From contig NZ_SJPP01000005.1 of the NCBI RefSeq assembly GCF_007860075.1, forward strand, positions 28,685-92,684: a stretch of DNA of 64,000 nucleotides, in the 5' to 3' direction. The notes under the pieces are model-generated. The model made no database searches, was not told where the DNA came from, and worked only from the letters and a program-made list of their open reading frames with translations. Each line of letters begins with the position of its first letter. Position 1 is the stretch's first letter. Made by a program: the position numbers and the translations under genes. Source of the DNA: Symmachiella macrocystis. GTDB lineage: Bacteria; Planctomycetota; Planctomycetia; Planctomycetales; Planctomycetaceae. Positions 4,627 through 21,549 of the stretch are shown piece after piece.

Positions 4627-7083
4627 CTACGGACCGGCATCATTAGATTTGATGAGCCAGACTTCAGAGACCATACAGCCACGACCGTCGACGAGGTTCC
4701 ATTCTACGTCCAGAGTACCGCCTCGGGTTGCTGCCTGGGGCACGTGGTAGCTGACTGGCCAGATGGGGGATGGTTGAGCGACAGGACCATGAATGCCGAA
4801 CTCGTCGTTCAAAGTGAGCGTCATGCTGGGGCGGAAACGGCCAGCGTATGTGACTTTGAGTCGGTACTGGGCTTTCGGATCGAGACCTTCGTACCTCATC
4901 TTGAGCGGCGTACCGTAGAGCGTGGTGATTTGTGTTTGCCAAGACCCCCGCAATTCTTGACGTCCCGTATGGGCTCCTGCCACGCGGGCCACTTCTTCTT
5001 TGAACGCCAAGTCGTCCTTTTCCGTCTGTCCGGTCTGCTTTGCAATCGTCTTGGCGTCCGCCTTGTAATTCGGGAAGGCCACGCGAGAGGTGTGATTGCC
5101 CGAGGGGTCCTCTTCCCAGCTGTGTTGCGAAATTACGTGCGAGTACTTTCCGATTGTCCCCAGATCATCGTAGAACCCGCCGGGGCCCGGATCCTCCCAA
5201 TTCAGGATGGTTTTGATTTGCGCAAGCTGCTCTGCCTGATTGGGGAGTGCCAGAATTGCTTCAAACCGCTGTTCCAGCCAGGGCCGATTGTTCAATGGCT
5301 GATCCAGCCAGTCCAGCATAGCGCCGCGTTCTGAATTTCGGGCGAGATAGGGTGGCTCGACGCTCAGTTGATAACCGATGCTCTCCAGCATCAAAGGTCC
5401 CAATTCCTCAAGGCCGGACCGCAGCGCAGGTGCTGCCGGTCGGTCAGCTTGAGCCAGCGCCGCACGGGCACTTTCGATGGCTTGGCTCACGCCAGTCTGT
5501 GAGGCATCGGCCAGTGCGGCGAGTGCCTGGGCTTCATAACCCTTCTGGGCACGGGCTTCTGCCTGGACGTTGGCGTCGAATCGGGCGCGAAACAGATACA
5601 TCTGTGCTCGCCAGTTTTTGTCAAAATCGGGAACGCGCTTCGCAATTTTTTCCCACAAGGCCAGCGTGCGGGGAATTGCTGTGTTCTCCGCAATAGGTCC
5701 ACTCCAATTGGCCTCCAGCCCGCGCAGCCCCTCTGCAACGTCCTTCGCCAGATCGACTCCAAACCAGACCTTGCCGTACTCCTCAAGGGCGATATCCATG
5801 TCTGCCTGCGGATCCCAGCCGAGAACGTTCCAGACCTGTTTATTCAGATCATCATGGATTCCATCAGAATACGTGCCGAAACCGTCGCTGAGATTTAAGT
5901 ATCTGCGGTAGATGTGAGACTGCTTTTGGGGCATCGGCATCACGGGTTCTCGGCCAATGGTGTGCGCAAAGGCTGGGTCCCAGTTGGGGATCGGGTACTG
6001 GCAGCGCACCGTATGGTTGATGTCCGGATATCGCCGGATGGGATAGCGGGTTGGTGTGCGTTCACGCATTTCCTCCCATCCCATCTTGATCCATGGTCCG
6101 TAGATAAGTCCGGCGAGCCAGTCGGGGCTGTTGGAGGTAAGGTAGTCGAAGAAGTAGTCGTTTTCTTCCAGCGTGAAGGTCTGATTGGATACCCAGATTT
6201 TGGCATTGGGATGAATTTCCTTGAGAACGACTGACAGCTTCTCAAGGAAGGGCATCAAATGCTCGGCCGGTGTATCGCCGTCGTCACCACCGGGAATAAA
6301 CAAGTGATCGATCGCCGAATAATCCTCGAGGAATTTGCGACGCAGTGCGATCGCCCGCGCCGCGCCCTCCGGCGTTGTCACATCTTCACCCTCGATTGCC
6401 ATGACCGGCGACCAGATCCAAACGTCAATGCCGTAAGACCGGATTAGCTCCGAGAGCGCCACGTTCATCGAACGCATCGTCTCGGTCATGACCGGACCAT
6501 CTTTGGCATTCGCGTCAAGATTGCTGATGAGTTCCACGCCATTGCAACCGAATAAGATCAGATCGCGGATGTATTGCTCATACATGTCCACCGTCCAGGC
6601 ATCGTATGTATTGGCTGTATTGCGGTATGCCAACTGGTGCGCGCGAATTGGAACGTCCGGCGACGAAATGATCGGTTGATCGAGCTTCAGGGTCAAAATT
6701 CCGGGCCGATACGTCGCGAGGCGAATCAGTCGCCCCGCAGCGTAGAGTGCGCCTCGCGCGTCATGTCCGACTAGGCAGACTTCTTTTTCGCGGACGGCGA
6801 CCGTATACGATTCGGGCTTTTGTGGTACCTCCACAATCGAAACATCTGCCGATGTCCCCAGACGGATGACCACCCCATCTGCGGGTGCGGATTTGGCAAT
6901 AGGCAGTGTGATGCCGCTGCGCTCAGCCAGTTCTTCCTGCAGCATGACTGCCGCCTTCGCCACCACGGGCGACGGAGAATCTGTCACGATTGTTGCCGTC
7001 GACAAATCGATCGTCGAAGCCGCTATCGCGACAGCAGGACTGAGGACAATGAACAGAAATCCGCCTAGTAAGCTGCGATACAT
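4627..7083 (-). CDS. Secreted glycoside-hydrolase-like protein (GH67/GH20-like architecture)
   Basis: 818 residues from the ATG at 7083, which follows GAGAGAGAG and begins a clear signal peptide (MYRSLLGGFLFIVLSPAVAI, then AAS). A longer frame to 7173 adds residues before the signal and is rejected. Residues ~20-140 look like the alpha/beta domain that precedes the barrel in GH20 and GH67 enzymes (PVVAKAAVMLQEELAERSG, GALYAAGRLIRLA). The middle looks like a TIM barrel, with ELISNLD, WIWSPVMA and an acidic stretch GGDDGDTP that could supply carboxylates. The C-terminal ~130 residues resemble a beta-sandwich. This points to polysaccharide or uronic-acid breakdown outside the cytoplasm. Substrate and catalytic residues are inference. 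Confidence 0.75.
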   Translation of the reverse strand: MYRSLLGGFLFIVLSPAVAIAASTIDLSTATIVTDSPSPVVAKAAVMLQEELAERSGITLPIAKSAPADGVVIRLGTSADVSIVEVPQKPESYTVAVREKEVCLVGHDARGALYAAGRLIRLATYRPGILTLKLDQPIISSPDVPIRAHQLAYRNTANTYDAWTVDMYEQYIRDLILFGCNGVELISNLDANAKDGPVMTETMRSMNVALSELIRSYGIDVWIWSPVMAIEGEDVTTPEGAARAIALRRKFLEDYSAIDHLFIPGGDDGDTPAEHLMPFLEKLSVVLKEIHPNAKIWVSNQTFTLEENDYFFDYLTSNSPDWLAGLIYGPWIKMGWEEMRERTPTRYPIRRYPDINHTVRCQYPIPNWDPAFAHTIGREPVMPMPQKQSHIYRRYLNLSDGFGTYSDGIHDDLNKQVWNVLGWDPQADMDIALEEYGKVWFGVDLAKDVAEGLRGLEANWSGPIAENTAIPRTLALWEKIAKRVPDFDKNWRAQMYLFRARFDANVQAEARAQKGYEAQALAALADASQTGVSQAIESARAALAQADRPAAPALRSGLEELGPLMLESIGYQLSVEPPYLARNSERGAMLDWLDQPLNNRPWLEQRFEAILALPNQAEQLAQIKTILNWEDPGPGGFYDDLGTIGKYSHVISQHSWEEDPSGNHTSRVAFPNYKADAKTIAKQTGQTEKDDLAFKEEVARVAGAHTGRQELRGSWQTQITTLYGTPLKMRYEGLDPKAQYRLKVTYAGRFRPSMTLTLNDEFGIHGPVAQPSPIWPVSYHVPQAATRGGTLDVEWNLVDGRGCMVSEVWLIKSNDAGP

Positions 7084-8306
7084 CGGATCAATTCTCTCTC
7101 TCTCGTGCGGTCTGGCCTGATTGTGGTGTTGGTTGGGCGGAGCACTCGCATCGTCCCGAATCGTTGCAGGCAAAACTCCAAATCAGAGGGCGATCGATCA
7201 AACCGTTTCGTCCTAAAATTACCCAAATGGAATCCGTCTTGGCCGCAGGGCGATTTGTTCGAGTATATCCTGAACTTGCCTGCTCCGCCACGAGTTCATT
7301 GCCATCGCGACCGTTTCGCCGCACGTGGGACGGCCTCCAACGCCCTTCTCTCCCCGTTGCGAACGGACCGTTCGTACCTTCCTTTGTCAACTTCGGAGTT
7401 GTTCAACGCGGCAGGGCCTCATTCCGGCATGGGAAGGGGGCGTTTCATTTTCAGCCGATGGATCCGCTGTAGCAGTTGCCGAAACAGTGGACGGGGAATC
7501 GCCACTTCCCGAGCGGTCCAAAAACATTGGCGGCCGAAAGCCGAATGCCACAACGAAGTTCATCGGATAAAGTCATGCATGAACTGTCGGCAGAACTCCT
7601 GGCATTCAGCCCCGTGCACCACCTATAAACAACTGAGCCACCTGTTGAAAAACTCTCTGGTTCGAAACGCCTGGAATGGGGCCGTTCCGGAATATGGGTT
7701 TGGGGATCCGACCCCGTTGCAATATCTCGAACTCTCTGGTTTTGGGTAGTCTTGCCGGTTAATGGCTTGGCCGTAAAAGCCTCACTGGGGACGAGTTTGT
7801 AGAGGGTTGCAAATGGTGTCTGATGTGGACAACTTTCGAACTGAGTCCGTTCGCAACATAGCATGTCGTTCGCGACTCTGGCTGTATCATCTGCCGCCGC
7901 TGTGACGGCTTGTTAGCACTTTGAATGTCGATTTCGCTGACGGCGCGAGATCGTACCCATGGTTATCGGGTAGCGGATAGTGCCCTCCAATCGCATCAAC
8001 CAAACGATTACCTGGAACTCGAGTACGGCAATTCTGAACTCTGTAAGCGTCTCCCATTTTGATCTGGGGTAGCTGAAACTTCTTGCAATCGCAATACCTT
8101 TTTGGCATAGTGGCACAACAAGTGATGTTGCCTGCGTCTGCGCATAGTTTATCGCACTTTTGGCGGTGATGCAGTTTGCAATTCGCCGTTTAAAAACGTC
8201 ATCATAGATACAGCTTCAAAGCCCGATTGCGCCTGCTTTTGACACGGACAGAGAGTGTCGGAGAAGCGTTGCCAGGGGTTAAACAGTCGTATAGAGGATG
8301 CGATTC
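7084..8306. other. Long gene-free stretch upstream of the ubiquitin-like operon
   Basis: About 1.2 kb without a supported gene. A frame at 7105-7749 (+) is compositionally odd and lacks a ribosome site, so it is left out. The stretch contains the second copy of the ~125 bp repeat (7650-7773). TTGCAA, 17 bp, then CATAGT around 8089-8111 could be a promoter for the operon starting at 8307; this is a guess by eye. Confidence 0.45.
7650..7773 (+). repeat. ~125 bp dispersed direct repeat, copy 2
   Basis: Partner of 4180-4304, in the same orientation and with the same block order. It lies just outside the 5' end of the glycoside-hydrolase-like gene, so the gene is bracketed. Similarity is interrupted by substitutions and small indels, so the duplication is not recent. 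Confidence 0.6.
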
Positions 8307-8651
8307 ATGAACGATATAACCATCGAAGTATGGGATGCAACTGGCAACAAAAAACAGTCCGTGGAACTGCCGGAAGATGCTGAGGTCAATCGCGTGATTG
8401 TCGTTCTCGTCGAACGCATGAATTTACCCGTGCACAGCCCGGATGGACAACTCATGAGCTACAAGTTTCATCACAAAAGCAGCGGCCGACAATTGTTGGA
8501 TGATGAGACCCTGCATTCGGCCGGTGTGAAAGATGGCGATATCTTACGGCTGCAACCAGAAATCACTGCAGGAAGCCCTGGACCGCAACAAAACGGCGTC
8601 GCGCCAGTTCCAATTGACAACTTGGGGGGACGCATTGGCCATTTCAATTAA
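8307..8651 (+). CDS. Ubiquitin-like (YukD-like beta-grasp) protein, first gene of conjugation operon
   Basis: A 114-residue modifier candidate. Residues ~3-85 follow the beta-grasp pattern: a paired N-terminal strand region (ITIEVWDATGNKKQSVELPE), a helix (NRVIVVLVERM), then LLDDETLHSAGVKDGDILRL, which mirrors the end of ubiquitin and YukD/EsaB. A ~20-residue Pro-rich tail follows and ends D-N-L-G-G-R-I-G-H-F-N. The Leu-Gly-Gly six residues from the end looks like a processing site that would expose a Gly-Gly terminus. The ATG at 8307 is preferred over the one at 8298 because AGAGG lies 9 bp before it but touches the earlier ATG. It overlaps the E1 gene by 17 bp. Confidence 0.88.
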   Translation: MNDITIEVWDATGNKKQSVELPEDAEVNRVIVVLVERMNLPVHSPDGQLMSYKFHHKSSGRQLLDDETLHSAGVKDGDILRLQPEITAGSPGPQQNGVAPVPIDNLGGRIGHFN

Positions 8652-9831
8652 GTGGAGTGAAAAAGAAGGCGATCAGCGTTTCGACCGGTTCAAATTAATC
8701 TCCTGGTGGGACCAACAACGATTGGCCGAGGCGAACGTGTTGGTAATCGGTGCCGGGGCGCTTGGCAACGAAATTCTTAAAAATCTGGCGCTGCTCGGAA
8801 TCGGTCAAGTGTTTGTCGCCGATTTGGATTCGATTGAGAATTCCAATTTATCTCGATGCGTTCTGTTTCGTGCTGAGGATGAAGGACGTCGAAAATGCGA
8901 CGTGGCGGCCGGACGGGCGTCTGAAATTTATCCGGATATGAAGATTCAGCCGTTTTTCGGCAATGTGGTTTACGATTTGGGGTTAGGTGTCTTTCGCTGG
9001 GCTGACGTGATTTTGTGCGGTTTAGATAATCGCGAAGCCCGTGTGGCCATTAACCGTGCCGCTGCCCGTGCAGGCAAGGTCTGGATTGACGGCGCGATTG
9101 AACGATTGGACGGTGTGGCGCGCGTGTTCGATCCGGCATGTGGTCCGTGCTATGAGTGCACAATGAGCGAAGTCGACTGGAAAATGTTAGAAGCACGGAG
9201 GAGTTGTGCGCTACTCTCGCGAGATGAAATGAATCAAGGAAAGGTCCCAACGACGCCGACAACCGCTTCGATTATCGCAGGAATTCAATGCCAAGAAGCG
9301 GTCAAGCTACTGCACGGTCTCGATGTGCTTTCCGGGCAGGGATTCGTTTTCGACGGTTCGAACCATCAGAGTTATGTCGTCGACTACACGCAGCGGAGCG
9401 AATGCCCATCGCATGATCCCTATCAGCCCATTGTCCGGGAGTCATGGAGCGTCTCCGACATCACTGCAAGTGACATGTTGCAACGCGTTCGCAGAGATCT
9501 AGGGCCGACGGCTGTGGTCGAATTCAACAACGACCTATTAGAATCGTTACGTTGTCCAGAGTGTGAGAACGAAGAAATGATGTTTTCCTCGTTGGGGTGC
9601 GTCAATGAACGAAAAGGCCGCTGTACGTCATGTGGGGCAGACCGGATCCCGCAAACATTCCATACCCTCAACGGCCAAGAAAAGTTTTTGGATCGGACAC
9701 TCAAAGATTTGGGTGTCCCGGAATGGGATATTATCGGAGGCCGTTCTGGCCTAGAACAAAAGTATTATGAGTTTGGCGGCGACCAGGATTCCGTATTGGG
9801 GCCTCTAGGTGGGACTGATCATTCCCGATGA
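8635..9831 (+). CDS. E1-like activating enzyme (ThiF/UBA superfamily)
   Basis: Should adenylate the C-terminus of the upstream Ubl and pass it to the E2. The frame opens at 8533, but its early part is an out-of-frame shadow of the Ubl gene; I place the start at TTG 8635 after GGGGGGA, giving 398 residues. Features in that numbering: Rossmann loop GAGALGN (39-45), nucleotide site ADLDSIENSNLSR (62-74), LCGLDNREAR, a possible zinc cluster CGPCYEC (169-175), candidate catalytic Cys in RRSCALL (191), crossover PTTPTTAS, and EAVKLLHG. A four-Cys zinc ribbon follows (C307, C310, C330, C333), then a C-terminal domain that could present an E2. Family is secure; the catalytic Cys is inference. Confidence 0.92.
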   Translation: MAISIKWSEKEGDQRFDRFKLISWWDQQRLAEANVLVIGAGALGNEILKNLALLGIGQVFVADLDSIENSNLSRCVLFRAEDEGRRKCDVAAGRASEIYPDMKIQPFFGNVVYDLGLGVFRWADVILCGLDNREARVAINRAAARAGKVWIDGAIERLDGVARVFDPACGPCYECTMSEVDWKMLEARRSCALLSRDEMNQGKVPTTPTTASIIAGIQCQEAVKLLHGLDVLSGQGFVFDGSNHQSYVVDYTQRSECPSHDPYQPIVRESWSVSDITASDMLQRVRRDLGPTAVVEFNNDLLESLRCPECENEEMMFSSLGCVNERKGRCTSCGADRIPQTFHTLNGQEKFLDRTLKDLGVPEWDIIGGRSGLEQKYYEFGGDQDSVLGPLGGTDHSR

Positions 9832-9897
9832 ATTACCACAAAGTTGCTTTCGGTTGATCGCGCTGCGACACACAACGGGAAAGACGCGGGAGTCAGC

Positions 9898-11019
9898 ATG
9901 ACAGATTCGAGTATGAGTTTGCCCGACGTCCGGCAAATTGTGTTGGAAGAATTGCCTCAAGCGGATTTTCCCGTCAACCTATCTGAGGATTTTCGCGTCC
10001 ACTTCACTGAGAAATGCCATGTGTCTATTCTGGCTCATGCTGAAGAGGATACGTCCGTCGAAATCTGTGGTGTACTGGTGGGAGGAGTACAGCACGATGC
10101 ACACGGCCCCTTCGCATTGATCTCTGAACACATTCGTGCCGACGCCGCTACGAGTAAGTTCGCTGAAGTGACGTTTACCCACGAAGCCTGGTCAAAAATC
10201 AATGCGGAGATGGATTCACGGTATAGTGATTTGAGCATCGTCGGCTGGTACCACACACACCCAGACTTTGGAATATTTCTGTCGGACCGAGATGAATTCA
10301 TTCACCAGAATTTCTTTTCCGGTGCCAGTCAAATCGCTCACGTGGTCGATCCGATTCGTAAGACCGAGGGCGTCTTTGTCTGGCGCGAGGGCAAGCCACA
10401 TCTCTGTTCCCATTTTTGGGTCGGCGACGAAATCCGCGCGGAAACCCAGCGCGAAACAGCGGCCGGCCAATCGCCGCCACAGCCCGGTGCTCCCGAGGCG
10501 GTCGTTGCGCGGGTTGAAAACGCCGCACCGGGGCCGTTGTACTTTTGGATGTGTATGGCGCTGGTGTTTCTTCTGGGCTATATGCTATCAGGCATACTTT
10601 CGAATCGGCGATCCAATTGGGAGCAACGGATGATCTTCCGTGGCGTCGTTCAGGAATATGGAATTATCAAGAATCTGCGACCAGGACTGAAACGGCACCT
10701 GGACGCCGTCGACTCGGGCTTGGGGTTGGCGACTTTGGAGATTGAAAAACTATCCAAGGAGCATGCATTACTGGCAGGTGATGAAAAGAACAAGATTCGC
10801 AAGCAATGGCGCACGGTGCTCAATACGGTCGCAAAAAGTCAAAAACAACTGGACGTGATTGAAGCGACATATTGTCTCACAAACGAAGAATCTGAAATCG
10901 TTGAAGGCCTGCTCAAACAAATTCTCACCGACGCCGCTCCCCAGCCCGCCTCGCCCAAGTCGCCAAGCGAGCAGAAAACGAGCGAATCCTCGTCATCCGA
11001 TAAACCACCAGCGGAGTGA
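9898..11019 (+). CDS. Membrane-anchored JAB/JAMM metallopeptidase (deubiquitinase-like)
   Basis: Predicted zinc isopeptidase that would trim the Ubl precursor or remove it from targets. The JAMM signature is complete: Glu55 in SVEICGVLVGG, His119-x-His121-Pro, seven residues, Ser129, two residues, Asp132 (WYHTHPDFGIFLSDRD). A transmembrane helix follows (~216-234, YFWMCMALVFLLGYMLSGIL), then a ~110-residue helical region (EIEKLSKEHALL, KNKIRKQWRTVLNTV) likely to be coiled coil, and a Ser/Pro-rich tail. Start at 9898 after GGGAG; the frame extends to 9844 without support. The gene ends 6 bp before the FHA gene. The membrane anchor is unusual for JAMM peptidases. Confidence 0.93.
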   Translation: MTDSSMSLPDVRQIVLEELPQADFPVNLSEDFRVHFTEKCHVSILAHAEEDTSVEICGVLVGGVQHDAHGPFALISEHIRADAATSKFAEVTFTHEAWSKINAEMDSRYSDLSIVGWYHTHPDFGIFLSDRDEFIHQNFFSGASQIAHVVDPIRKTEGVFVWREGKPHLCSHFWVGDEIRAETQRETAAGQSPPQPGAPEAVVARVENAAPGPLYFWMCMALVFLLGYMLSGILSNRRSNWEQRMIFRGVVQEYGIIKNLRPGLKRHLDAVDSGLGLATLEIEKLSKEHALLAGDEKNKIRKQWRTVLNTVAKSQKQLDVIEATYCLTNEESEIVEGLLKQILTDAAPQPASPKSPSEQKTSESSSSDKPPAE

Positions 11020-11025
11020 ACTGAA

Positions 11026-12099
11026 ATGCCTGCCCCGAATCAGCCAATCCGCATCCACCAAGATGACCTGCATTCTCCAAGTGTGGAGGAATCTCTACAG
11101 CAGCAGGCGCATCTGGGCCGCGACGTTGGCGAGATGGCGCCACAATCGTGGCTGGTTCGAACACTTTTTTCCAGTTGGTTCTATCTGTCAGTGACGAGCG
11201 GCTTGGGGGCGTTTGTTGCCTGGATGATTCTGGAGCCTTTCTTTGACGACTCAATGGCAGGTCAAGACGACGTCGAAATTGTCAACTTGCTTCTGTTCCC
11301 TACTGTTGCCGGATTCATTGGCCTGTTTTTGGGAGCTGCCGAAGGAATCATGTGCCGCAATGCAAGCCGTGCCGTGATCAGCGGTGCGATTGGGCTGGGA
11401 GTTGGCTTTGGGGGTGGTTTGATTGCTTTGGTTGCCGCTGGCTGTATTTTTACAGTGATGACATCCATCGCACTGGAGTTTTGGGAAAATCCACAGGACG
11501 ATGAAATGCCAACCGGATTTGCTCTGTTAATCCTTATGATGGGTCGGGCAGCAGCCTGGGCCGTTGCAAGTATTCCTGCTGGATTAGGTCAGGGCATCGC
11601 GATCCGCCAGAAAAAAGTGGTCCTCAACGGAGTTGTGGGAGGAGTGCTGGGCGGGTTAGTGGGAGGATTGTTATTCGATCCGATTAGTCTGCTATTTGTC
11701 ACTGATGACGGTGAGGCCAGTTTAAGCCGAGCCATTGGGTTAACATGCATAGGACTCTCGGTCGGCCTATTTGTCGGCTTAGTCGAAGGCTGGACGAAGA
11801 CAGCCTGGTTGCTGATGCAAAAGGGGCCATTGGCCGGAAAGCAGTTTGTAATGTATCGCGATACCACAGTGCTCGGCAGTTCACCCAAAGCCGACATTTA
11901 TTTGTTCAAAGACGATGTGATTGAACCGCGACACGCGCTGATTCATAACCGGGGTGGACGTTTTGAACTTGAAGATTGCCAAACCCCTGATGGGACCTAC
12001 GTCAACGGGATTCCGATCAAACGGCACGTCTTGCACGCGGGCGATCAAATCGGCCTCGGCAAAACCGTATTGGAGTTTTCAGTAAAAGAAAAAGTATAG
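11026..12099 (+). CDS. Polytopic membrane protein with C-terminal FHA domain
   Basis: 357 residues. Several Gly-rich hydrophobic segments span ~50-260 (VTSGLGAFVAWMILEPF, LLFPTVAGFIGLFLGAAEG, GVGFGGGLIALVAAG, GGVLGGLVGGLLF, IGLTCIGLSVGLFVGLVEG). A cytoplasmic FHA domain follows at ~270-355: GSSPKADI (284-291), His303 in EPRHALI, and GTYVNG (323-328), the conserved loop that reads phosphothreonine. FHA domains bind phosphorylated partners, so this protein probably couples Ser/Thr kinase signalling to the conjugation pathway or scaffolds it at the membrane. It begins 6 bp after the JAMM gene. Membrane topology is predicted by eye. Confidence 0.88.
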   Translation: MPAPNQPIRIHQDDLHSPSVEESLQQQAHLGRDVGEMAPQSWLVRTLFSSWFYLSVTSGLGAFVAWMILEPFFDDSMAGQDDVEIVNLLLFPTVAGFIGLFLGAAEGIMCRNASRAVISGAIGLGVGFGGGLIALVAAGCIFTVMTSIALEFWENPQDDEMPTGFALLILMMGRAAAWAVASIPAGLGQGIAIRQKKVVLNGVVGGVLGGLVGGLLFDPISLLFVTDDGEASLSRAIGLTCIGLSVGLFVGLVEGWTKTAWLLMQKGPLAGKQFVMYRDTTVLGSSPKADIYLFKDDVIEPRHALIHNRGGRFELEDCQTPDGTYVNGIPIKRHVLHAGDQIGLGKTVLEFSVKEKV

Positions 12100-12129
12100 G
12101 TTGATCATTCACATCTTTAGGAGCCGGTC

Positions 12130-12666
12130 GTGATTGAATTTGAGTGTCCAACATGTGGGAAAGCATTGAAAGTCCGTGAATCCTCCGCTGGCAAGACGGG
12201 GAAATGCCCCGATTGTAACGGAAAGATCCAAGTCCCGGACGCCGTGTATGATGCCGAAGAGGTCGAGTCCTACTCAACGCAGGGCGACGACGATTTCTCT
12301 TCGTTTGACGGCTATGAAAACGCCGGAACTCCGATCCCACGTGAAGAGGCCGAAGGCGCTTTCCGACATCCGTGCCCGGTTTGCGGAGAGATGATTAAAG
12401 ACTCAGCCGTCAAATGCCGCTATTGCGGAGAAATCTTTGACGAGACACTCAAGAAGAAGGAGAGCCGTCATTCGGATGAGGATGCCGATTTGACGACGGG
12501 CGACTGGGTGTTTTGCATTATATGTAGCGGAATCGCCTGTATCTTTGGCATTGTTTATATGATTCAGGGAAAGCCCAAAGGGATCAAAATGGTCGGCATC
12601 TCTTTTGTAATGCAAATCGTTTGGGGAATTGTCCGAGTAATTCTTGAAGCAGCAGCGAATCGTTAA
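12130..12666 (+). CDS. Double zinc-ribbon membrane protein
   Basis: 178 residues from a GTG start preceded by AGGAG. Two treble-clef-like zinc ribbons: C6-x2-C9...C26-x2-C29 (PTCGKALKV, GKCPDCNGKI) and C82-x2-C85...C96-x2-C99 (CPVCGEM, CRYCGEIFDE), separated by an acidic linker. One or two transmembrane segments follow (FCIICSGIACIFGIVYMI and GISFVMQIVWGIVRVIL). The second ribbon's CRYCG form recurs in the next gene. No catalytic residues are seen. A binding or adaptor role in the ubiquitin-like operon is likely but unproven. Confidence 0.82.
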   Translation: MIEFECPTCGKALKVRESSAGKTGKCPDCNGKIQVPDAVYDAEEVESYSTQGDDDFSSFDGYENAGTPIPREEAEGAFRHPCPVCGEMIKDSAVKCRYCGEIFDETLKKKESRHSDEDADLTTGDWVFCIICSGIACIFGIVYMIQGKPKGIKMVGISFVMQIVWGIVRVILEAAANR

Positions 12667-12683
12667 AAAGAGGTGGAAACAAC

Positions 12684-12791
12684 CACAGAGACCGCACAGA
12701 GACCGCACAGAGACCGCACAGAGACCGCACAGAGACCGCACAGAGACCGCACAGAGACCGCACAGAGACCGCACAGAGACCGCACAGAGAC
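12684..12791 (+). repeat. 11-bp tandem repeat, ~9.8 copies
   Basis: Nine complete, identical units of GAGACCGCACA from 12688 to 12786, with partial units at both ends. It fills most of the 140 bp gap between two genes of the ubiquitin-like operon. Because 11 is not a multiple of three, it reads as a repeating peptide in every frame, but none of these frames has a supported start. Perfect unit identity suggests recent slippage expansion. Confidence 0.95.
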
Positions 12792-12806
12792 TTAGGCTGA
12801 CCAGCA

Positions 12807-13517
12807 ATGTCAAACATCATTCAATGTGAGTGTGGGGCGAGTATACGATTGCCCTCTAATACAGAGAAACGCGCTCTGCGCTGCCCCAAATGCAAACAGG
12901 GCATTGCGCTGACCGTCCACGCGACAGCGCTGAAGACAGTACCAGTGGATGCAGGTGAAACAGTCGCAACCTGTTCGATATGTCAATCGTCAGCGCATGC
13001 GTCTGAACAGTTGGTCAGCTGCCCGCAATGCGATCAGATTCATCACCAGGAATGTTGGGCGGAAGTGGGGGGATGCGGGACTTATGGTTGTAGTGAAGCC
13101 CCCGCACATGAGAAAGATGTGAGTTCTTCTCAGACGCAGCGTTCTGGGTGGGGGGATGAGAAAACGTGTCCTGCTTGCTCTGAATCGATCAAGTCGATTG
13201 CATTACGATGCCGTTATTGCGGCACCGACTTCAATACCGTTGACCCTTTGACTGTGAAAGATTTGCGGCGGCAGGTGAAGCATGAGTCGGCGGTCGGAGA
13301 TTTGCGAAATTGGACCATTGCCATTTTTGTCATGAGCTTGATCGGGTGTTTTGCCCCCATCATGATATTCGTGGCCTTCGGTGTATTACTGAACAAACGC
13401 AAGGAATTAAAAGCAGCCGGCCCGATTTACTTGGTATTGTGTTATTCCGCGGCGATTCTGTCTGCGATATACTCATTTTTGATGCTTGCGTTTGCGATAA
13501 TAAGCGGACTGAATTAA
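12807..13517 (+). CDS. RING-like membrane protein (candidate E3), with flanking zinc ribbons
   Basis: 236 residues with three zinc modules and a membrane tail. N-terminal ribbon: C7-x-C9...C26-x2-C29. RING-like module: C56-x2-C59, C72-x2-C75, H80-x2-C83, C90, C95 (CSICQSS, SCPQCDQIHHQECW, GCGTYGC), the eight-ligand cross-brace spacing of the prokaryotic RING family 1 described by Burroughs, Iyer and Aravind. A second ribbon uses C121, C124, C135, C138. Two or three transmembrane helices occupy ~168-232. In this operon it is the natural candidate to bring the charged E2 to a membrane substrate. Ligase activity is inference. Confidence 0.85.
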   Translation: MSNIIQCECGASIRLPSNTEKRALRCPKCKQGIALTVHATALKTVPVDAGETVATCSICQSSAHASEQLVSCPQCDQIHHQECWAEVGGCGTYGCSEAPAHEKDVSSSQTQRSGWGDEKTCPACSESIKSIALRCRYCGTDFNTVDPLTVKDLRRQVKHESAVGDLRNWTIAIFVMSLIGCFAPIMIFVAFGVLLNKRKELKAAGPIYLVLCYSAAILSAIYSFLMLAFAIISGLN

Positions 13518-13533
13518 CCGACGAACCCGACTG

Positions 13534-14853
13534 TTGAATAAAGCCCGTCCAACATTGGATCAACCCCATAATAAATCACTGCTGGCTGGAAGCCGTGAGG
13601 CGGGAGTGCTTTGCCCCCACTGCCGAGGAGAGATCGAACTGGGCGAGATGGTCTCCATCTGCCAGGCATGTGGTCAAGTCCAGCATGAGAAATGTTTTCA
13701 GAATTGGGACACGTGCGGATCGTATCATTGTGCGCCGCAGCGACGTGTGGAATTGGCGGCGCAGCCATCTGACATCAAAATTACTTCCGGCGATCTAAAA
13801 CGCGTGCATCCAGCGAAATCCGTATTTCATCCTCGCCGCCCACATGCCAATTCTGCTTCCGCAGCGGGAGTTTCGTCCGACCGGCCAGGGATGAATCGCT
13901 TGGCAGTCATTGCACTGGTGATAGCCCTGCTGGGAATTCCGTTATTCGGCCTTATCACCGGGTTAATGGCAATTGCGCTGGGGTGCATTGCTCTGGCGAC
14001 ACACAAACCCAATGCCCGCGGCGCCGGATTCGCTGTCTCTGGAATTCTGCTGGGCGTGGTTGATATGGCGGGTTGGGTCGTGTTTCTTGCCTTGTTCTTG
14101 AACGGCCGCGCCGAGAATCATCAAGTGATCGAATTCGAACCGGACGCGGCTGAAATCGAGGCTGCCGCCCCACATATTCGCCGTGCGATCAAAGCAAACG
14201 TGTTGATTGAATCGCACAACGGCATACCAGGATTTTCTGGAGGCTCGATCGGATCGGGAGTGATCCTCCGAATCCAAGACGGAGAAGCGTTGATCGTAAC
14301 CAACCGGCATGTCATCGACGACGAGTATACAGGGGACGAGTTTCACGACACGAAACTGCCGACAGATATCGGCGAATTACGAATCAAGCTGATTGGGCAA
14401 CTCTCGCAACCGGGAAAACTAGTCTGGATGGCTCCCGACGGGATCGACTTGGCGTTGTTAACCGTGCCTGTCTTGTCACCGGATGTGTTGCCTGCGGTTT
14501 GGGATGCTGCGGTTCCCCAACTGGCCGTGGGGGATGAAGTATTTGCGATTGGGAATCCTCACGGTTTGGGCTGGACACATACGAGCGGTGGGATTTCACA
14601 GTTTCGGTCCCTGGCCAGCGGCAATCGTAAAATTCGCGTGATTCAAATCAGCACCGCGATCAATTCCGGTAACAGCGGAGGAGGTCTTTACGATCAAGCT
14701 GGGAAATTGATTGGCATCAATACCTGGAGCGATGACAAGCGATTTAGCGAGGGGCTTAGTTTTACCATCGCGTTTGAATCTCTGTTAGAATTGGCACCAC
14801 ATCCATTGGAGGGTTTTATCCCCCCTCAAATTGAGGCCTCAGACGCACTATGA
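13534..14853 (+). CDS. RING-like domain fused to membrane segment and trypsin-like serine protease
   Basis: 439 residues from a TTG codon at 13534, 17 bp after the previous stop. Residues 27-66 form a second RING-like module (C27, C30, C43, C46, H51, C54, C61, C66; CPHCRGE, CQACGQVQHEKC). Residues ~120-190 are two or three hydrophobic helices of DUF4190 type. From ~215 the chain is an S1C/DegP-like protease without PDZ domains: His259 (TNRHV), Asp305 (DGIDLALL), Ser381 (NSGNSGGGL), so the triad is complete. If the RING faces the cytoplasm the protease could lie on either side. It ends with a 4-bp ATGA overlap onto the E2 gene. The start codon is uncertain. Confidence 0.88.
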   Translation: MNKARPTLDQPHNKSLLAGSREAGVLCPHCRGEIELGEMVSICQACGQVQHEKCFQNWDTCGSYHCAPQRRVELAAQPSDIKITSGDLKRVHPAKSVFHPRRPHANSASAAGVSSDRPGMNRLAVIALVIALLGIPLFGLITGLMAIALGCIALATHKPNARGAGFAVSGILLGVVDMAGWVVFLALFLNGRAENHQVIEFEPDAAEIEAAAPHIRRAIKANVLIESHNGIPGFSGGSIGSGVILRIQDGEALIVTNRHVIDDEYTGDEFHDTKLPTDIGELRIKLIGQLSQPGKLVWMAPDGIDLALLTVPVLSPDVLPAVWDAAVPQLAVGDEVFAIGNPHGLGWTHTSGGISQFRSLASGNRKIRVIQISTAINSGNSGGGLYDQAGKLIGINTWSDDKRFSEGLSFTIAFESLLELAPHPLEGFIPPQIEASDAL

Positions 14854-15521
14854 GCAACGTACGACTGCGCCGATTGCAATCGGACTATGAGAAGTTGGGG
14901 AGTTTTATCAAGCAGCATCCGAGGCTGACATTGATTCAAGCCGATGGTGATCCCCCCGAGAGATATCAACTGGAATACCGTATCCGCAGCATTCGACAAG
15001 TCGATGATGACGTTGAATGGATAAAAAACCACACTGTAGAAATTTTGTTGCCACGGAACTATCCACGTGTCCCGCCCCAATGTCGGATGCTCACTCCGAT
15101 ATTTCACCCCAACATAGCGCCGCATGCCATCTGCGTAGGAGACCACTGGAGTGCGGGCGAACCATTGTGGTCGATCGTCGCTCGCATCGGCGAGATCATC
15201 GCCTATCAAAGCTACAATACAAAAAGCCCCTTAAATGGCGAAGCGGCGCGGTGGGTCGACGAAAACAAAGTGCAACTGCCACTCGACCCGGTCAGTATGC
15301 TCCCCGAGGAGAAGGCATCGCGATCCCGGAAGATAACCCGATCCGCTCAATCCGCGAAGGGCAAAGTCAAATCCACACATGTGTCGGAGCCAGCGACGCT
15401 TTCCGTCCCGTGCACGAATTGCCAAGCACGCTACAACGTGCCGGTTGATAAGGCCGGCAAACGTTTTCGTTGTAAACGTTGTCAAACTCTGATTCAAATC
15501 CCCGGCCAACCGGTTTCTTGA
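14850..15521 (+). CDS. E2-like ubiquitin-conjugating enzyme with C-terminal zinc ribbon
   Basis: 223 residues. Residues ~1-138 are a UBC fold: helix RRLQSDYEKLGSFI, strands ending YPRVPPQCRMLTPIFHPN, then HPN (86-88), catalytic Cys95 in HAICVGDHW, and the downstream helix LWSIVARIGEIIAYQSYN with SPLNGEAARW. The order HPN, Cys, Trp, Pro-Leu-Asn is as in eukaryotic E2s, so thioester transfer is expected. A basic linker leads to a C-terminal zinc ribbon (C188, C191, C208, C211), related to ribbons on other proteins of this operon and perhaps used to dock. It overlaps the protease gene by 4 bp and its stop touches the next start. Confidence 0.93.
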   Translation: MSNVRLRRLQSDYEKLGSFIKQHPRLTLIQADGDPPERYQLEYRIRSIRQVDDDVEWIKNHTVEILLPRNYPRVPPQCRMLTPIFHPNIAPHAICVGDHWSAGEPLWSIVARIGEIIAYQSYNTKSPLNGEAARWVDENKVQLPLDPVSMLPEEKASRSRKITRSAQSAKGKVKSTHVSEPATLSVPCTNCQARYNVPVDKAGKRFRCKRCQTLIQIPGQPVS

Positions 15522-15958
15522 TGATTAACGATCGTATGGCACAGAACGGATTACGGATGCGCAATCGGCATCTCATGATGTTGACGACTGCAGCCGTTGT
15601 TGTCTGTTTGGCTTTTTTGCTCGAAGTACGCCCCGACCAAGGCGTTCAACTCCGCATGTTTAAAAGTCATCCGCTTCCCTCAAGTTGCATTTCGAGAGAT
15701 GTGTTTGGTGTCGATTGTCCAGGTTGCGGCCTCACACGGAGTTTCGTGTATTTGTCGCACAACCAATGGGCGGAATCTTTAGCCGTACATCGTGTTGGGT
15801 GGGTGTTGGCCATAGCTGTGCTCCTCCAGTTTCCTTATCGCATCGCCGCACTGGCCTATCATAAAGATTATCCGATTGGCAAACCCTTTACGGTATGGTT
15901 TGCCTGGGGACTGATCGCGATGTTGATCGGGAATTGGATACTCGGATTCTGGCTGTGA
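15521..15958 (+). CDS. DUF2752 membrane protein, last gene of the operon
   Basis: 145 residues from the ATG at 15521, which overlaps the E2 stop by one base. Hydrophobic segments at ~18-35, ~90-110 and ~124-145 predict three membrane passes. The family signature CPGCGLTRS is at 66-74, with an upstream Cys56. DUF2752 has no established biochemical role. Coupling to the E2 gene suggests it belongs to the conjugation pathway, perhaps as a membrane substrate or anchor, but DUF2752 genes also occur alone elsewhere, so the link is inference. Confidence 0.85.
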   Translation: MINDRMAQNGLRMRNRHLMMLTTAAVVVCLAFLLEVRPDQGVQLRMFKSHPLPSSCISRDVFGVDCPGCGLTRSFVYLSHNQWAESLAVHRVGWVLAIAVLLQFPYRIAALAYHKDYPIGKPFTVWFAWGLIAMLIGNWILGFWL

Positions 15959-16313
15959 TCGCTGATAGGCAATAAATGTCGCTCAGCAGCGAGTACGTCT
16001 TGCAGTGCGTGCTGTTGCTCTGGAGTTATTTATTTCCACACGGCCGCATAAAATCACGATGGCCAAGACAAAAATGGGAAAGTTTATGAGTGCGCTTGCT
16101 GGATCAGGTTTCTTCTGACTGGCCGAGCCTGAAAACCCAGTAAATTCATTCCTCTATCTTCATGGATTCGGGATCGCGTTCCCAACCATACTACTGCCGA
16201 TTTCATTTCACCGTTGGTATTAGCAACTGTATTCGGCCGAGGTGTAGTAGACCTGTGGATTTAGAGTAGGCAAGTTCCCACTACAAACGCGGCGTTATCC
16301 TCAAGGGCACATC
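15959..16313. other. Intergenic stretch between the operon and the recombinase module
   Basis: 355 bp without a supported gene. A weak inverted repeat (CGCT...AGCG near 15979-15991) follows the operon's last stop but lacks a T-run, so it is not called a terminator. Genes on either side converge. Confidence 0.5.
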
Positions 16314-16706
16314 TTAACGGAGGATGGTCCATATCCTGCGTTGCCTCCCCCAATCCGCCTCCGCCACAACCGCCCGCAGTTCGCGCTCCGTCATCGCATC
16401 CCTTCCCTGTTCCACTGCTGGCAGAAACAACAACGCCTCTTGGATATCAGTCGCTAGATTGAGCAAATTCATAATCTGCGTCACCCGCGCCCGGCTGACA
16501 TGTCCCTGCCACGCCAACTCCGCCTGGTCAGTCACGACGCCATCGCAGATCAACTGGTCGAACCGAATCGCCAACGCCATCAACTTGGCTATCCTAGGAA
16601 TGCGTTTTGCCGGCGGCGCGGGCTTTTCGCCAGTCTTCAATTCTTTCCGGCTCCGCCGCCCGGCCCCGAAATGCACGTTTGCCGTTACAGTCGGTCCACC
16701 AAACAT
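16314..16706 (-). CDS. Small HTH-like protein downstream of the serine recombinase
   Basis: 130 residues. The N-terminus is basic (GRRSRKELKTG). The middle has a likely helix-turn-helix (DQAELAWQGHVSRARVTQIM, then NLLNLA) of the kind that follows large serine recombinases in such modules. The start at 16706 overlaps the recombinase end by 22 bp, as in co-translated pairs. No internal stop, unlike its two upstream neighbours. Its role may be regulation or direction of recombination; this is context-based inference. Confidence 0.65.
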   Translation of the reverse strand: MFGGPTVTANVHFGAGRRSRKELKTGEKPAPPAKRIPRIAKLMALAIRFDQLICDGVVTDQAELAWQGHVSRARVTQIMNLLNLATDIQEALLFLPAVEQGRDAMTERELRAVVAEADWGRQRRIWTILR

Positions 16707-18202
16707 TGCACCACCTCCGTTGCTAACGTCTTGATTCCCGTCGCATGAAACGTCACGCTGATCGTTCCGGCCTGCCCGTCGTAGTCGACCCGCTCGATCA
16801 GCAATTTCAGAAGCTTCGATTTCTCCTGTGAGGACAACTCGTCCCAGACCGGATCGAATTCCGCCAATGCAGTCTGCACGTCCGCCTCATTGATGATCCG
16901 GTTTCGCAAGTCTGCCAATTCGCTACGAATCTCCGACTGTCGCCGTTCTGCGATCGCCTCGCGTTCCTGGGCGTCGGCCAATCGGGCCGTCTCCTCCGCG
17001 GCAACTGCCCGTTCCATTTCGCCGCCCAAACGCCCCAGTTCCCGCGAAAACGCCCGCGTTTCAGTTTTTAGTTCTTTGATCGCCTTTTAGGTCTGCGACC
17101 GCGACGCAGCCTACGTGGCGGCGACGAGGCCGGGATCGCGGCCGATCGCTCGGATCTGGTCCACCACAAACCGTTCGATTTCGCCGGCCGGTACTGATTT
17201 TGGAGGGCACTCGCCGTATCCCCGTTTCTGCGCATTGGTGCAGACGTAATACCGGTACCGCTTTGTCTTGTTCTTGACCACGTGCGAAGGCGTCATCCGG
17301 CAACCACACGGTGCGCAGTGGAGCAGTCCCTTGAGCAGCGCGCCGAACCGGTTTCGCACGTCGCGACCGCCGTTGCGGTGGTTTTTTCGCAGCAATTCCT
17401 GTACCCGGCGAAATATCTCCTGATCGACGATCGCCTCGTGTTCCCCCTCGTAGACGGCCTCTTTGTGCCGCACTTGGCCGATGAAGGCCACGTTGGTCAG
17501 TTGTTTGTGCAGACTCGTCTTGTCGAATCGGCGGCCACCACGGGTTTTGCCTTTCTTGGTGGTCCAGCGCTTCGTCTTCCAACCCCGCTGATCGATTTTC
17601 GCGATAGTTGGCAGCAGCCCTTCGTGCTCCAGATAAAGCTCGAATATCTGTCGGATCTGCAGTGCCTCGATTTCGTTGATGACCAGTTTCGTGTTGATGA
17701 TGTCATATCCCAGGATCGGCGGGCCGCCAGCGTATTTTCCCTTGCGGCGGGCAGTCGCCATCTTGTCTCGCGTCCGCTCGGAGATCATTTCCCGTTCGAA
17801 CTGGGCGAACGACAGCAAAATGTTCAGCGTGAGCCGTCCCATGGAATGGGTGGTATTGAATTGCTGCGTGACCGAGACGAACGAGATGCCGTGTTGTTCA
17901 AAGACCTGCATCATGCTGGCAAAATCAAGCAGGCTGCGGCTAAGGCGGTCGACCTTGTAGACCACAACGCATTCAATGCGGTCCGCTTCGATGTCGGCCA
18001 TTAGTCGTTTTAATCCCGGACGGTCCATGTCTCCTCCCGAAAAGCCACCATCGGCATATTCGGTGGGCAAGCACTCCTAGCCTTCGTGACGGTGGCTGGC
18101 GATGAATGCCTCGGCGGATTCTCGCTGGGCGTCGAGCGAATTGAATTCCTGTTCGAGCCCCTCGTTGGTCGATTTGCGGGTGTAGATGGCACAGCGCGTC
18201 AT
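16685..18202 (-). pseudogene. Large serine recombinase interrupted by three in-frame stops
   Basis: Reading from the ATG at 18202, the resolvase/invertase start is clear: [12 protein letters not shown] with the catalytic Ser in RKST, then [20 protein letters not shown] at 18079-18077 interrupts it. The frame resumes with TEYADGGFSGG, VYKVDRLSRSL, the recombinase domain, and a zinc-ribbon region (LLHCAPCGCRM, YYVCTNAQKRGYGECPPKS), then meets a TAG at 17113-17111 and a TAA about 24 bp later. The coiled-coil and C-terminal tail continue in the same frame to 16685 (VWDELSSQEKSKLLKLLIER). No frameshifts are seen. The frame is well preserved, so inactivation looks recent. A shortened product from an internal start would lack the catalytic Ser. 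Confidence 0.85.
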
Positions 18203-18690
18203 TGCTGTCCTCCTTTAACATTCAGGCGGAAAATGAGAAATCCATTGGTGTGTGTGCCGGTGATCGCCTTGGCGACCGCCGAGAGCGACTTGAAGGTTTC
18301 CCCCTCGTATTCGAAGCCCTCGTCGAGCACCTTCACGCGGACATCACCCCCCTTCTAGATTCGGGAAAGCGTCGTGCCGGGTAACAGCAGTCGGGGATCG
18401 TGGCGATTCGGCAGCTGTCCCGTCCGCGCGGGTGGCTTTGCCAGATCGTGCCCCTGTGGCGGTTTGAGCCACAGATCGGCGTCGTTGGCCAATTCCATTG
18501 CCCGGCGGCGAGTCCGTTCCGACAGGTCCCCTTCCTCATTGGCCTGCATCCGCCAAGCAATCCGCTTGATCAACCATTGTTTGTGGTTGGAGCGGCATTC
18601 TTCGCCGAAGACCTCCTCGTACCGCACCCGCAATTCACGGGGCGTCATTCGCCGCAACGCGGTAACCTCTTGCTCGATGTTCAACGCCAT
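18199..18690 (-). pseudogene. DUF2924 protein interrupted by an in-frame TAG
   Basis: The start at 18690 gives MALNIEQEVTALRRMTPREL and the typical DUF2924 body (YEEVFGEECRSNHKQWLIKR). A TAG at 18357-18355 falls after PGTTLSRI. The same frame then continues with the expected C-terminal part (DEGFEYEGETFKSLSAVAKA, then ITGTHTNGFLIF) to a TGA at 18201-18199 that overlaps the recombinase ATG. DUF2924 proteins accompany this kind of serine recombinase. With the stops in the recombinase, two coupled genes of one module carry four in-frame stops in all. Confidence 0.8.
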
Positions 18691-18724
18691 GAATTTACTC
18701 CTGTGTGTGAGACTCTCGAAACCG

Positions 18725-18899
18725 TTAACCAACGGTGACAGTGAGCCTCGAATCGTCGCCGGCATCAAGGCATGTCGGGGCGGATTTTTCTAGGCGTGGA
18801 GGGGAGATTGGCCTGGCGTGGAGCCGCTGAACGGCGCGGGCGAGGAGTTCGGCGATTTGGCGGTCGCGATCTTCCGGTGTGTGGTGGGGGGTGCTGTGT
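18725..18899 (-). pseudogene. Possible small first gene of the recombinase module, start lost
   Basis: The minus-strand frame reads HHTPEDRDRQIAELLARAVQ and ends with CLDAGDDSRLTVTVG before a TAA. It looks like a real short protein but lacks an in-frame start: the nearby ATG at 18902 is one base out of frame, and a TAG lies just upstream in the correct frame. A single-base change could explain this. Low confidence. Confidence 0.35.
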
Positions 18900-18902
18900 T
18901 CA

Positions 18903-18924
18903 TACTATTTATTTACGCAATCGG
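18903..18924 (-). repeat. 22-bp perfect inverted repeat, left copy
   Basis: Exact reverse complement of 22584-22605. Read on the minus strand it begins CCGATTGCGTAAATAAATAG and ends two bases later. It lies immediately upstream of the minus-strand recombinase module. With its partner it brackets the five-gene segment between them. Confidence 0.95.
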
Positions 18925-19025
18925 CCGTTGCGGTTGCCCGAAAAATGAATCGTTTTTTCCTGCGTGGTAATTTGGAAGACTTCATCCTGATCCCACACCA
19001 TTGATGTACAACAAGGAGACAAGTA

Positions 19026-20237
19026 ATGGCTGATTACCGCATGAAGCGGTTGTCGAACCCGGGGGTGCTCCGGTCGATCGATCGAAAAAACCTTAGTGGT
19101 TTCCTGACGCAATATCGCGATTTCTTCGCGAGGCGAGGCTTAAAGCTGCCCGAAAAGTCGAAAGGCGGTCGCCTGAATTACGACAAACTTATCACCATAT
19201 TGATGACCCCTGACGAGGAAACGCCCCACGAGTTGCTCGATGCGTTATATCTCATCGACGAACTATCGACGCCAGATGCGCAGGCCGCGCTCATCAATGA
19301 ATTCCATGCCAGGAGCGGCGAGATGGAGATTTTTGTCGTTAGTTTTCCTGAAAACCTGACGCTCGACAATCCCAGCCCTGCCGATGTCGCATTGTGCATG
19401 TGGTTGTACGATCGAAACGTCGTGGTGCGAGTGCATGCCGAGTGGGCGATGCCCAATGCGACACGATTTTATTATTTCCGCTCCAGCGAATCAGAGTTGG
19501 AATTCCCAGACCGGATCGAGGAGGCACTATCGAACTTACAGACCGAACTTGGAAATTGGTTCGAGTCACAGAAGTGGGGACGTAGCACAGAAATATTCGA
19601 TTTTGGTGGTGATGTTGATCGCTGGTTTCTAGTCCGGCATGGACAACCCTACCGGCGCCTGGAAGGCTGGAATGGAAAAAGTATCGTTAGCATTGAATAC
19701 CAACCATTGATATACGATGCGATTGTATTTGACGGTGAGCACGGCTTGCTCAAAGTCAAACCCTGCTCGCACCCCGGACCCGAAGCCGAACTCTATCGCA
19801 ATCTCGTTGGCAAACACGTTTTTGGCGACGATCGGATGTTTAGCGAAGACCAAGTGTTTTCGCTGGAACCACTGAAGGACTACGGCCAACGGTCGCTGGG
19901 TTGTGGTGCGAATGAAGGCCTTGACTCAATTCGTGCCACCGGATTGATCTGGCATTTCCAAGATGTTTATGGCCGCGTGGAAACGTGGAATTCGGACAAT
20001 ATCTTTAGCAGCAGTACGGATCTGGAGGGCGATGTGGTGGAAACGGCCGCGCTCATCGAGGCTGAATTTAATGTGGTGTTCTCCGGCGAGACGAATCCTC
20101 GGCCGTTTCGGCTTCAATTGCCAAACATTGCTAAGTTCTCTCGCAATGAGGACATCTCACTAATCGAGCGGTGGTTAACAGAACAACGATTTATGGACAA
20201 CGAGGCTGGGAATGACAACGTGGCAACGATTTTGTGA
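19026..20237 (+). CDS. Protein of unknown function, first gene of a two-gene cassette
   Basis: 403 residues, start after AAGGAG. I do not recognise a family. The N-terminus is basic (MADYRMKRLSNPGVLRSIDR). The rest is mixed alpha/beta, with a helical acidic segment (PDEETPHELLDALYLIDEL), an aromatic-rich centre (WFESQKWG, DRWFLVRHGQPYRRLEGW) and many acidic residues. No signal peptide, membrane helix or catalytic motif is seen. It overlaps the next gene by 26 bp, so the two are probably translated together and may act as a complex. The position inside a mobile region makes a host-interaction or defence role possible, but nothing in the sequence proves it. Confidence 0.8.
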   Translation: MADYRMKRLSNPGVLRSIDRKNLSGFLTQYRDFFARRGLKLPEKSKGGRLNYDKLITILMTPDEETPHELLDALYLIDELSTPDAQAALINEFHARSGEMEIFVVSFPENLTLDNPSPADVALCMWLYDRNVVVRVHAEWAMPNATRFYYFRSSESELEFPDRIEEALSNLQTELGNWFESQKWGRSTEIFDFGGDVDRWFLVRHGQPYRRLEGWNGKSIVSIEYQPLIYDAIVFDGEHGLLKVKPCSHPGPEAELYRNLVGKHVFGDDRMFSEDQVFSLEPLKDYGQRSLGCGANEGLDSIRATGLIWHFQDVYGRVETWNSDNIFSSSTDLEGDVVETAALIEAEFNVVFSGETNPRPFRLQLPNIAKFSRNEDISLIERWLTEQRFMDNEAGNDNVATIL

Positions 20238-21378: not shown

Positions 21379-21505
21379 CGAACATCTGCGCAGATGGCAA
21401 ATCGCAGAAGTCGTTTCTGCGCAAGGTTCTACACCGGCCGTTCTATTCAGGTAGCAGGTCCGGTGAAACCTACTAATTAACAATCAACCGCAGCCAATGC
21501 GGTCG

Positions 21506-21549
21506 CACCCCGTGGGAACTCCTTCACCGGACTTGCTTCCCACGGGGTG
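21506..21549 (+). terminator. Stem-loop, 13-bp perfect arms
   Basis: CACCCCGTGGGAA (21506-21518) pairs perfectly with TTCCCACGGGGTG (21537-21549) across an 18-nt loop, followed by ATTTATTT. It lies after the two-gene cassette and 38 bp before the next start, so it could end the upstream transcript or act on the leader of the next gene. Confidence 0.6.

Follow-up and report, generated by a model that had tools for sequence, protein, structure and literature searches.

A nine-gene operon in Symmachiella macrocystis with the predicted parts of a membrane-linked, ubiquitin-type conjugation system

A stretch of 64,000 nucleotides from the planctomycete Symmachiella macrocystis (the window, G000:C5:28685-92684, in a genome of 7.57 Mb and 6 contigs) contains, at 8307-15958, an operon of nine plus-strand genes whose products include a ubiquitin-like protein (Ubl), E1-like and E2 proteins, a JAMM metallopeptidase and two RING-type proteins, accompanied by FHA, zinc-ribbon and DUF2752 proteins. 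A first-pass annotation of this DNA had described it as a complete, eukaryote-like ubiquitin-type conjugation operon, and the listing of open reading frames (ORFs) and Pfam agree with it on the nine same-strand genes and recover all the domains it had claimed. The genes, their order, their motifs and the conservation of these, as well as the C-terminal tail pattern of the Ubl described below, are read directly from the sequences compared. The genes are, in order:

8307..8651, + strand: gene 1, Ubl of the YukD-type beta-grasp fold, 114 amino acids (aa); Pfam YukD, 9.5e-11
8635..9831, + strand: gene 2, E1-like protein, 398 aa from TTG 8635; ThiF, 1.8e-49
9898..11019, + strand: gene 3, JAMM/MPN+ metallopeptidase with one predicted transmembrane (TM) helix and a C-terminal extension; JAB, 1.3e-9
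11026..12099, + strand: gene 4, FHA membrane protein with at least five hydrophobic segments; FHA, 1.6e-13
12130..12666, + strand: gene 5, zinc-ribbon protein with two predicted TM helices; Pfam zinc ribbons, all below cut-off
12807..13517, + strand: gene 6, RING-type protein 1 (RING1), a candidate E3; Prok-RING_1, 1e-6, 29.0 bits against a cut-off of 29.1
13534..14853, + strand: gene 7, RING-type protein 2 with a protease (RING2-protease); Prok-RING_1, 2.9e-5, 24.4 bits; Trypsin_2, 7.7e-20
14850..15521, + strand: gene 8, E2; UQ_con, 6.5e-11
15521..15958, + strand: gene 9, DUF2752 protein with membrane helices predicted from hydropathy; DUF2752, 1.3e-14

The genes had been described as tightly spaced or overlapping, which holds for the E1 gene, whose start falls inside the Ubl gene, and for gene 7 and the E2 gene, which overlap by 4 nt, but not for genes 5 and 6, which are separated by a gap of about 140 bp, so that the spacing is not tight throughout the operon. 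Most of this gap is filled by a perfect 11-bp tandem repeat, CACAGAGACCG, present in 9.8 copies at 12684-12791. TTG 8635 is most likely the E1 start, because the N-terminal length then equals that of the E1 of a related locus (L019) counted from its Met; the DUF2752 gene has an ATG at 15521 within a longest ORF that begins at 15479. Hydropathy predicts membrane segments in six of the nine proteins (JAMM, FHA, zinc ribbon, RING1, RING2-protease and DUF2752), and an NCBIfam scan of the nine placed none of them in a family above that family's cut-off.

The modifier and its enzymes

The Ubl has a single beta-grasp domain (residues 7-82, Pfam) and lacks a terminal Gly-Gly. Its conserved end is instead Ala88-Gly89 (codons 8568-8573), followed by a variable tail of 25 residues. 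Among the best 120 of 4708 homologues, which include the window protein and, being best matches, are close kin, the core ends in RLQPEITAG in 119 and in RLYPEITAG in one, with each of the final ten core positions matching the window in at least 119. The tail that follows is of 0-71 residues (median 10; zero in two sequences), its first residue is the commonest one in just 39 of 118, and conservation ends right after the Gly in all 120. Across the phylum (26 Ubls from 25 genomes, window included), Ala-Gly stands at the same place in 23, even at 32-45% identity, and eight of these stop exactly there; it also occurs in 48 of 48 rows of a further locus comparison, in which some rows are one place fetched twice. 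The simplest reading is that the Ubl would be made as a precursor and cut after Ala-Gly, and the conserved Ala-Gly with its variable tail therefore predicts a single-glycine modifier produced by JAMM cleavage. This pattern is the new and most informative result of the analysis. In archaea, cleavage of a pro-ubiquitin tail by a JAMM protease has been described (PMC5654768, PMC6043591), and an earlier survey predicted E1/E2/JAB operons, noting for the fourth type (6d) that its small Ubl ends in a glycine that is highly conserved (PMC1779556). Single ubiquitin-like chains in the PDB match the Ubl profile at 0.0015-0.0043, including 6fnn chains crystallised with an Rpn11-like protein.

The modifier also appears to be the slowest-changing part of the operon, as ubiquitin is in eukaryotes. 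In six loci its identity to the window protein over residues 1-89/90 is 76-83%, compared with 62-68% for E1 in the same loci (53% in locus L022), 54-70% for full or long FHA matches, 37-45% for JAMM, 37-49% for RING2-protease, and 33-50% for DUF2752.

The catalytic motifs that the first-pass annotation had noted are present and conserved in alignments of rows above a bit cut-off of 100 (E1) or 50 (E2 and JAMM), window row included. E1 combines an adenylation domain with Cys191 (in RRSCALL), kept in 30 of 30 sequences, which we take to be the catalytic residue after the model of UBA5; its zinc site comprises C172, C175 and C257 (30/30) and H260 (28/30), and its C-terminal zinc domain C307, C330 and C333 (30/30) and C310 (29/30). 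In E2, H86-P87-N88 and the predicted catalytic Cys95 are kept in 42/42, and the C-terminus carries an MJ0042-type zinc ribbon. The JAMM motif is likewise intact (E55 and H119 in 27/27; H121, S129 and D132 in 28/28), and hydropathy places the single predicted TM helix of this protein at 216-234. The nearest solved structures of the three come from ubiquitin systems of eukaryotes or archaea: for E1 the NEDD8-activating enzyme (3.6e-23, for NEDD8 and ubiquitin E1s; UBA5 is weaker, 1.1e-12), for E2 the ubiquitin E2 2aak (3.5e-7, with HPN and active Cys aligned), and for JAMM the Rpn11-like chain 6fjv (4.1e-7), presumably from Caldiarchaeum subterraneum. In PADLOC, part of the E1 adenylation domain was matched by the E1-E2 and BilD models, JAMM by models for JAB (1.6e-6 at best), and the protease domain of gene 7 by a reverse-transcriptase-linked protease model; the window Ubl and E2 had no match.

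RING-type proteins, protease and FHA domain

RING1 consists of a zinc ribbon, a C4HC3 RING (C56 C59 C72 C75 H80 C83 C90 C95), a second zinc ribbon and two predicted TM helices. In an alignment of the window protein with 62 of the best 119 other homologues (from 359 found, the window's own included), neither the eight RING ligands nor the second zinc ribbon varies (63/63), and PF14446 is precomputed for the window RING1 protein itself (P0121). The predicted structure (predicted local distance difference test score, pLDDT, 87.1) has the RING domains of RNF12 and RNF13 as its top Foldseek rows (E 0.01), several of them from E2 complexes. C4HC3 is also how prokaryotic RINGs are reported to be arranged (PMC11354881).

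Gene 7 joins a C4HC3 RING at 27-66 to a DUF4190 membrane region and then a Deg/HtrA-type serine protease. In the window protein and 63 of its best 119 other homologues, six of the eight RING ligands are invariant and the other two kept in at least 90%, and the protease triad H259/D305/S381 is invariant. The predicted structure (pLDDT 79.3) matches Deg1/DegS (Foldseek, E 3.9e-15), and the membrane region has three helices in it; with its charge pattern, the arrangement would most simply put the RING inside and the protease outside.

The FHA domain of gene 4 is C-terminal (residues 281-345). In locus L022 (8868-9998), one open frame beside E1, JAMM and E2 genes comprises an FHA domain (2.6e-15), a zinc ribbon and a RING (Prok-RING_1 1e-5, 25.8 bits, below cut-off), with hydrophobic stretches after the RING as judged by eye. 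FHA and RING thus seem to belong together, and eukaryotes have FHA-RING ligases of their own, RNF8 and CHFR. The E2 of L022 has its zinc ribbon at the N-terminus, not the C-terminus; no Ubl was found in the L022 stretch, and its genome carries one with terminal Ala-Gly elsewhere.

Related loci, distribution and genomic setting

The search for the same gene order in relatives that the first-pass annotation had proposed found all nine genes in identical order at nine further loci (L002, L005, L018, L019, L020, L049, L051, L052 and L152), of which L019 and L020 carry one additional zinc-ribbon gene that separates Ubl from E1. Because it recurs in this way, the layout is not due to chance. L054 has all nine genes with DUF2752 moved, L004 is without the FHA, zinc-ribbon and RING1 genes, and many further loci end at contig boundaries. 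In L152 (8864-10195) the Ubl frame runs past Ala-Gly for another 146 residues, which contain a zinc ribbon and hydrophobic segments and which L019 and L020 encode as a gene of their own at this position; the L152 frame is an apparent natural fusion of Ubl, Ala-Gly and membrane protein, in which an internal start is possible.

Five named loci have E2 but no other core gene (L008, only 3.7 kb long, L010, L013, L014 and L015), and four of the five genomes carry an E1 at 65-66% identity. Around those E1s, L084 and L086 run from Ubl to RING2-protease without an E2 (a second E2 elsewhere was not searched for), and contig ends truncate L085 and L087. Other layouts are E1-Ubl-E2-JAMM and Ubl-E2-E1-JAMM, the latter in some cases supplemented by a further E2, a further JAMM and ORFs that match the RING1 profile weakly (29-44 bits). 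L144, L145 and L154 show two E2 and two JAMM matches around a single E1, and one genome (G611, with L152 and L153) holds two Ubl systems of differing layouts.

The distribution of the operon is patchy. Ubl matches occur in 25 of 294 genomes of the phylum and, at E 1e-10, in 67 of 397 of the class. E2 matches at E <= 1e-40 occur in 25 of 170 genomes of the family, four of which have only a form 38-40% identical; the 105 of 170 genomes reached at E 0.001, with at most 17 candidates scored per genome, were not counted, as most of the weak matches listed are the C-terminal zinc ribbon alone. E2 relatives in named genomes stand under planctomycete names in 21 of 21 cases, some of the genus placements being assumed. 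The operon was not found in two congeneric genomes: the best E1-like matches there are 30-33% identical, and none of the best 40 of 46-47 DNA candidates scored falls in the operon. One of these same-genus genomes has the left flank gene at 94% identity, with a break at window position 7388. A gene containing GH20b lies at 4630-7173 and has several paralogues in the same-genus genome G440.

Directly downstream, 16300-29050 carries serine recombinase, sigma-70-like, prim-pol, ParB-methylase and phage integrase genes and, judging from these, would be an integrated mobile element or its remains. Farther on, a perfect 16-bp tandem repeat of 6.6 copies occupies 53283-53387.

A predicted membrane-bound cascade and its alternatives

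The class to which this operon belongs had been anticipated, as the first-pass annotation held: Burroughs, Iyer and Aravind reportedly predicted bacterial Ubl/E1/E2/RING/JAB operons in silico in 2011. Like the operons of that kind, the present one brings together YukD-like Ubl, E1, E2, JAB and prokaryotic RING genes, and features of bacterial RING-containing Ubl operons are found here in the Ubl beside E1, the E2 His and Cys, the JAMM metal motif and the prokaryotic RING. What may go beyond them is the single-glycine end with variable tails, the RING-DegS-type protease, the FHA membrane partner, the nine-gene layout and the patchy distribution. Two later papers cite the 2011 prediction (PMC7159879, PMC11354881).

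Other published systems differ in one or more respects. The Caldiarchaeum subterraneum operon resembles the present one in having Ub, E1, E2, small RING proteins and an Rpn11-like JAMM together and a tail removed by JAMM (PMC5654768, PMC6043591), but its modifier ends in Gly-Gly rather than the Ala-Gly kept in 120/120 of the best 120 of 4708 homologues here; neither an FHA nor a serine-protease component is mentioned in the excerpts, and "membrane" as a word is absent from PMC6043591. The reconstituted prokaryotic E1/E2/RING cascade found in the literature is this archaeal type (PMC5654768); among the titles and abstracts listed, a set with subscription papers mostly outside it, no published experiments on a bacterial RING-type conjugation system of such kind appeared. 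In the FtsH ternary conflict Ubl set, JAB is proposed to release the Ubl, and Ubl and E2 form one protein with an EAD1 domain, next to a caspase-like effector gene (PMC7159879), whereas the present operon encodes Ubl and E2 as two proteins, and no EAD1 domain or caspase-like effector gene was found. The Bil operon (BilABCD) shares Ubl, E1, E2 and JAB, but BilA has two Ubl domains, BilB a CEHH site, and the excerpts name no RING, FHA or protease (PMC11354881); the window, with one Ubl domain and an E2 with HPN, is distinct from it, as the first-pass annotation had maintained. The FtsK-like ATPase and WXG100 genes of type VII secretion YukD/EsaB operons were found neither among the nine operon proteins nor among ten other scanned window proteins. 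UFM1- and ATG8-type modifiers are membrane-linked, single-glycine proteins whose terminal Gly is exposed by a protease. The window Ubl is predicted to be of a similar kind, yet its E1 is nearer to the NEDD8/ubiquitin E1 than to UBA5.

We consider it probable that the nine genes encode a complete, reversible cascade at the cytoplasmic membrane that attaches a single-glycine Ubl to targets, a prediction that concerns every catalytic step as well as the topology and the role. The variable Ubl tail would be trimmed by the JAMM peptidase after Ala88-Gly89; Gly89 would be adenylated by E1 and held as a thioester on Cys191, and the Ubl then handed on to Cys95 of E2. The RING-type membrane proteins would carry E2~Ubl to membrane or membrane-near substrates, selected possibly by threonine phosphorylation read by the FHA protein, and the JAMM peptidase would undo the modification. 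We tentatively favour a role in the control or quality control of proteins of the membrane or envelope, because gene 7 joins a RING, predicted inside, to a DegS/HtrA-type protease, predicted outside, and because membrane parts dominate the operon. A more specific and more doubtful version would be a counterpart of endoplasmic reticulum-associated control, an inner-membrane cascade with a phosphothreonine cue in which RING-DegS coupled tagging to periplasmic proteolysis without a 20S proteasome. Proteasomal degradation of tagged proteins is unlikely, because HslV, beside HslU, is the sole 20S-family match in this 96.6% complete assembly.

Several observations weigh against this picture or parts of it. 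The Ubl, E1, E2, RING-type and JAMM set predicted by the first-pass annotation appears complete, with the RING assignment as its weakest link: both window RING proteins score below the Pfam cut-off, and structure prediction, one of the checks it had proposed, returned RING-like rows for RING1 and a DegS-like protease for gene 7, but no RING1 match (Foldseek) that reached E 0.001. The FHA-RING fusion of L022 is a single case from one metagenome-assembled genome, and no second one was found among 392 phylum genomes (E 1e-15, best five candidates scored in each), one of which matched the RING and downstream part only. Hydropathy gives two clear TM segments in the membrane region of gene 7, and the protease would therefore lie inside; the charges flanking the JAMM TM helix leave its side unsettled, and L005 and L018 show no such helix at threshold. 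Three of the 26 phylum Ubls depart from Ala-Gly (Ala-Ala in L041; without it in L044 and L047), and polyubiquitin tops the PDB list of the Ubl profile (5e-7) merely by summing nine repeats of about 5 bits. The best NCBIfam profiles for E1 are ThiF (1.5e-34) and MoeB (4e-32), with ubiquitin E1 behind (2.2e-21), which is why "eukaryote-like" fits the set as a whole better than each protein. The fifth genome with an isolated E2 (G298, L008) has no E1 match above 28%. Moreover, a quality-control function that cells could not do without would be hard to square with the patchy distribution.

A function in defence or conflict, with the cascade modifying proteins of the phage or the host during infection in the manner of Bil and CBASS, is rather unlikely, yet it stays a real rival, because the distribution is patchy (E2 in 25 of 170 family genomes, no operon found in the two same-genus genomes) and because its bacterial relatives, known or predicted, often serve in defence (PMC10097602, PMC13373217), RING-containing Ubl sets included (PMC7159879); serine recombinase and phage-like genes also adjoin the operon. 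For Bub operons, PMC13373217 states that protection against phage has not been demonstrated. The PADLOC matches of E1, JAMM and the gene 7 protease domain are partial or weak; of the families among 267 flanking ORFs, six recur in at least three of 27 loci and none is defence-like by eye (the flanks were not PADLOC-scanned); and the Ubl, at 76-83% identity, is strongly conserved, unlike an arms-race protein.

About equally improbable is that the RING-type domains are zinc modules that anchor or regulate a membrane peptidase, with E1 and E2 conjugating without an E3. Burroughs and colleagues are said to have described treble-clef domains beside membrane peptidases in 2011, the Pfam RING scores are sub-threshold, and there are short E1-Ubl-E2-JAMM operons in which no RING is matched. 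Against this stand the eight invariant ligands, arranged as reported for prokaryotic RINGs (PMC11354881), and the Foldseek rows, headed by RING domains of which several come from E2 complexes. ORFs with weak RING1-profile scores in other layouts point the same way.

That the E1-activated Ubl is a carrier or a non-covalent membrane regulator, with no ligation by the E2-like and RING-like proteins, is very unlikely. The YukD/EsaB proteins of type VII secretion are not known to be conjugated modifiers, and E1 is nearest to the ThiF and MoeB profiles, but E2 HPN and Cys, E1 Cys191, the JAMM motif and the terminal Ala-Gly are all kept. Least credible of all is drift of the Ubl tails at a gene overlap, with the tails never removed and Ala-Gly structural, since the window tail does overlap the E1 start but tail length ranges from zero (2/120 and 8/23) to the 146 aa with a zinc ribbon in L152, and conservation breaks off right after the Gly in all 120 of the best homologues.

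If the membrane-bound cascade works as predicted, it would amount to ubiquitin-style tagging with RING ligases in bacteria, linked to the membrane, and the Ala-Gly/tail pattern makes this in silico prediction directly testable. The operon, moreover, bears on how RING, FHA and JAMM parts were assembled before eukaryotes.

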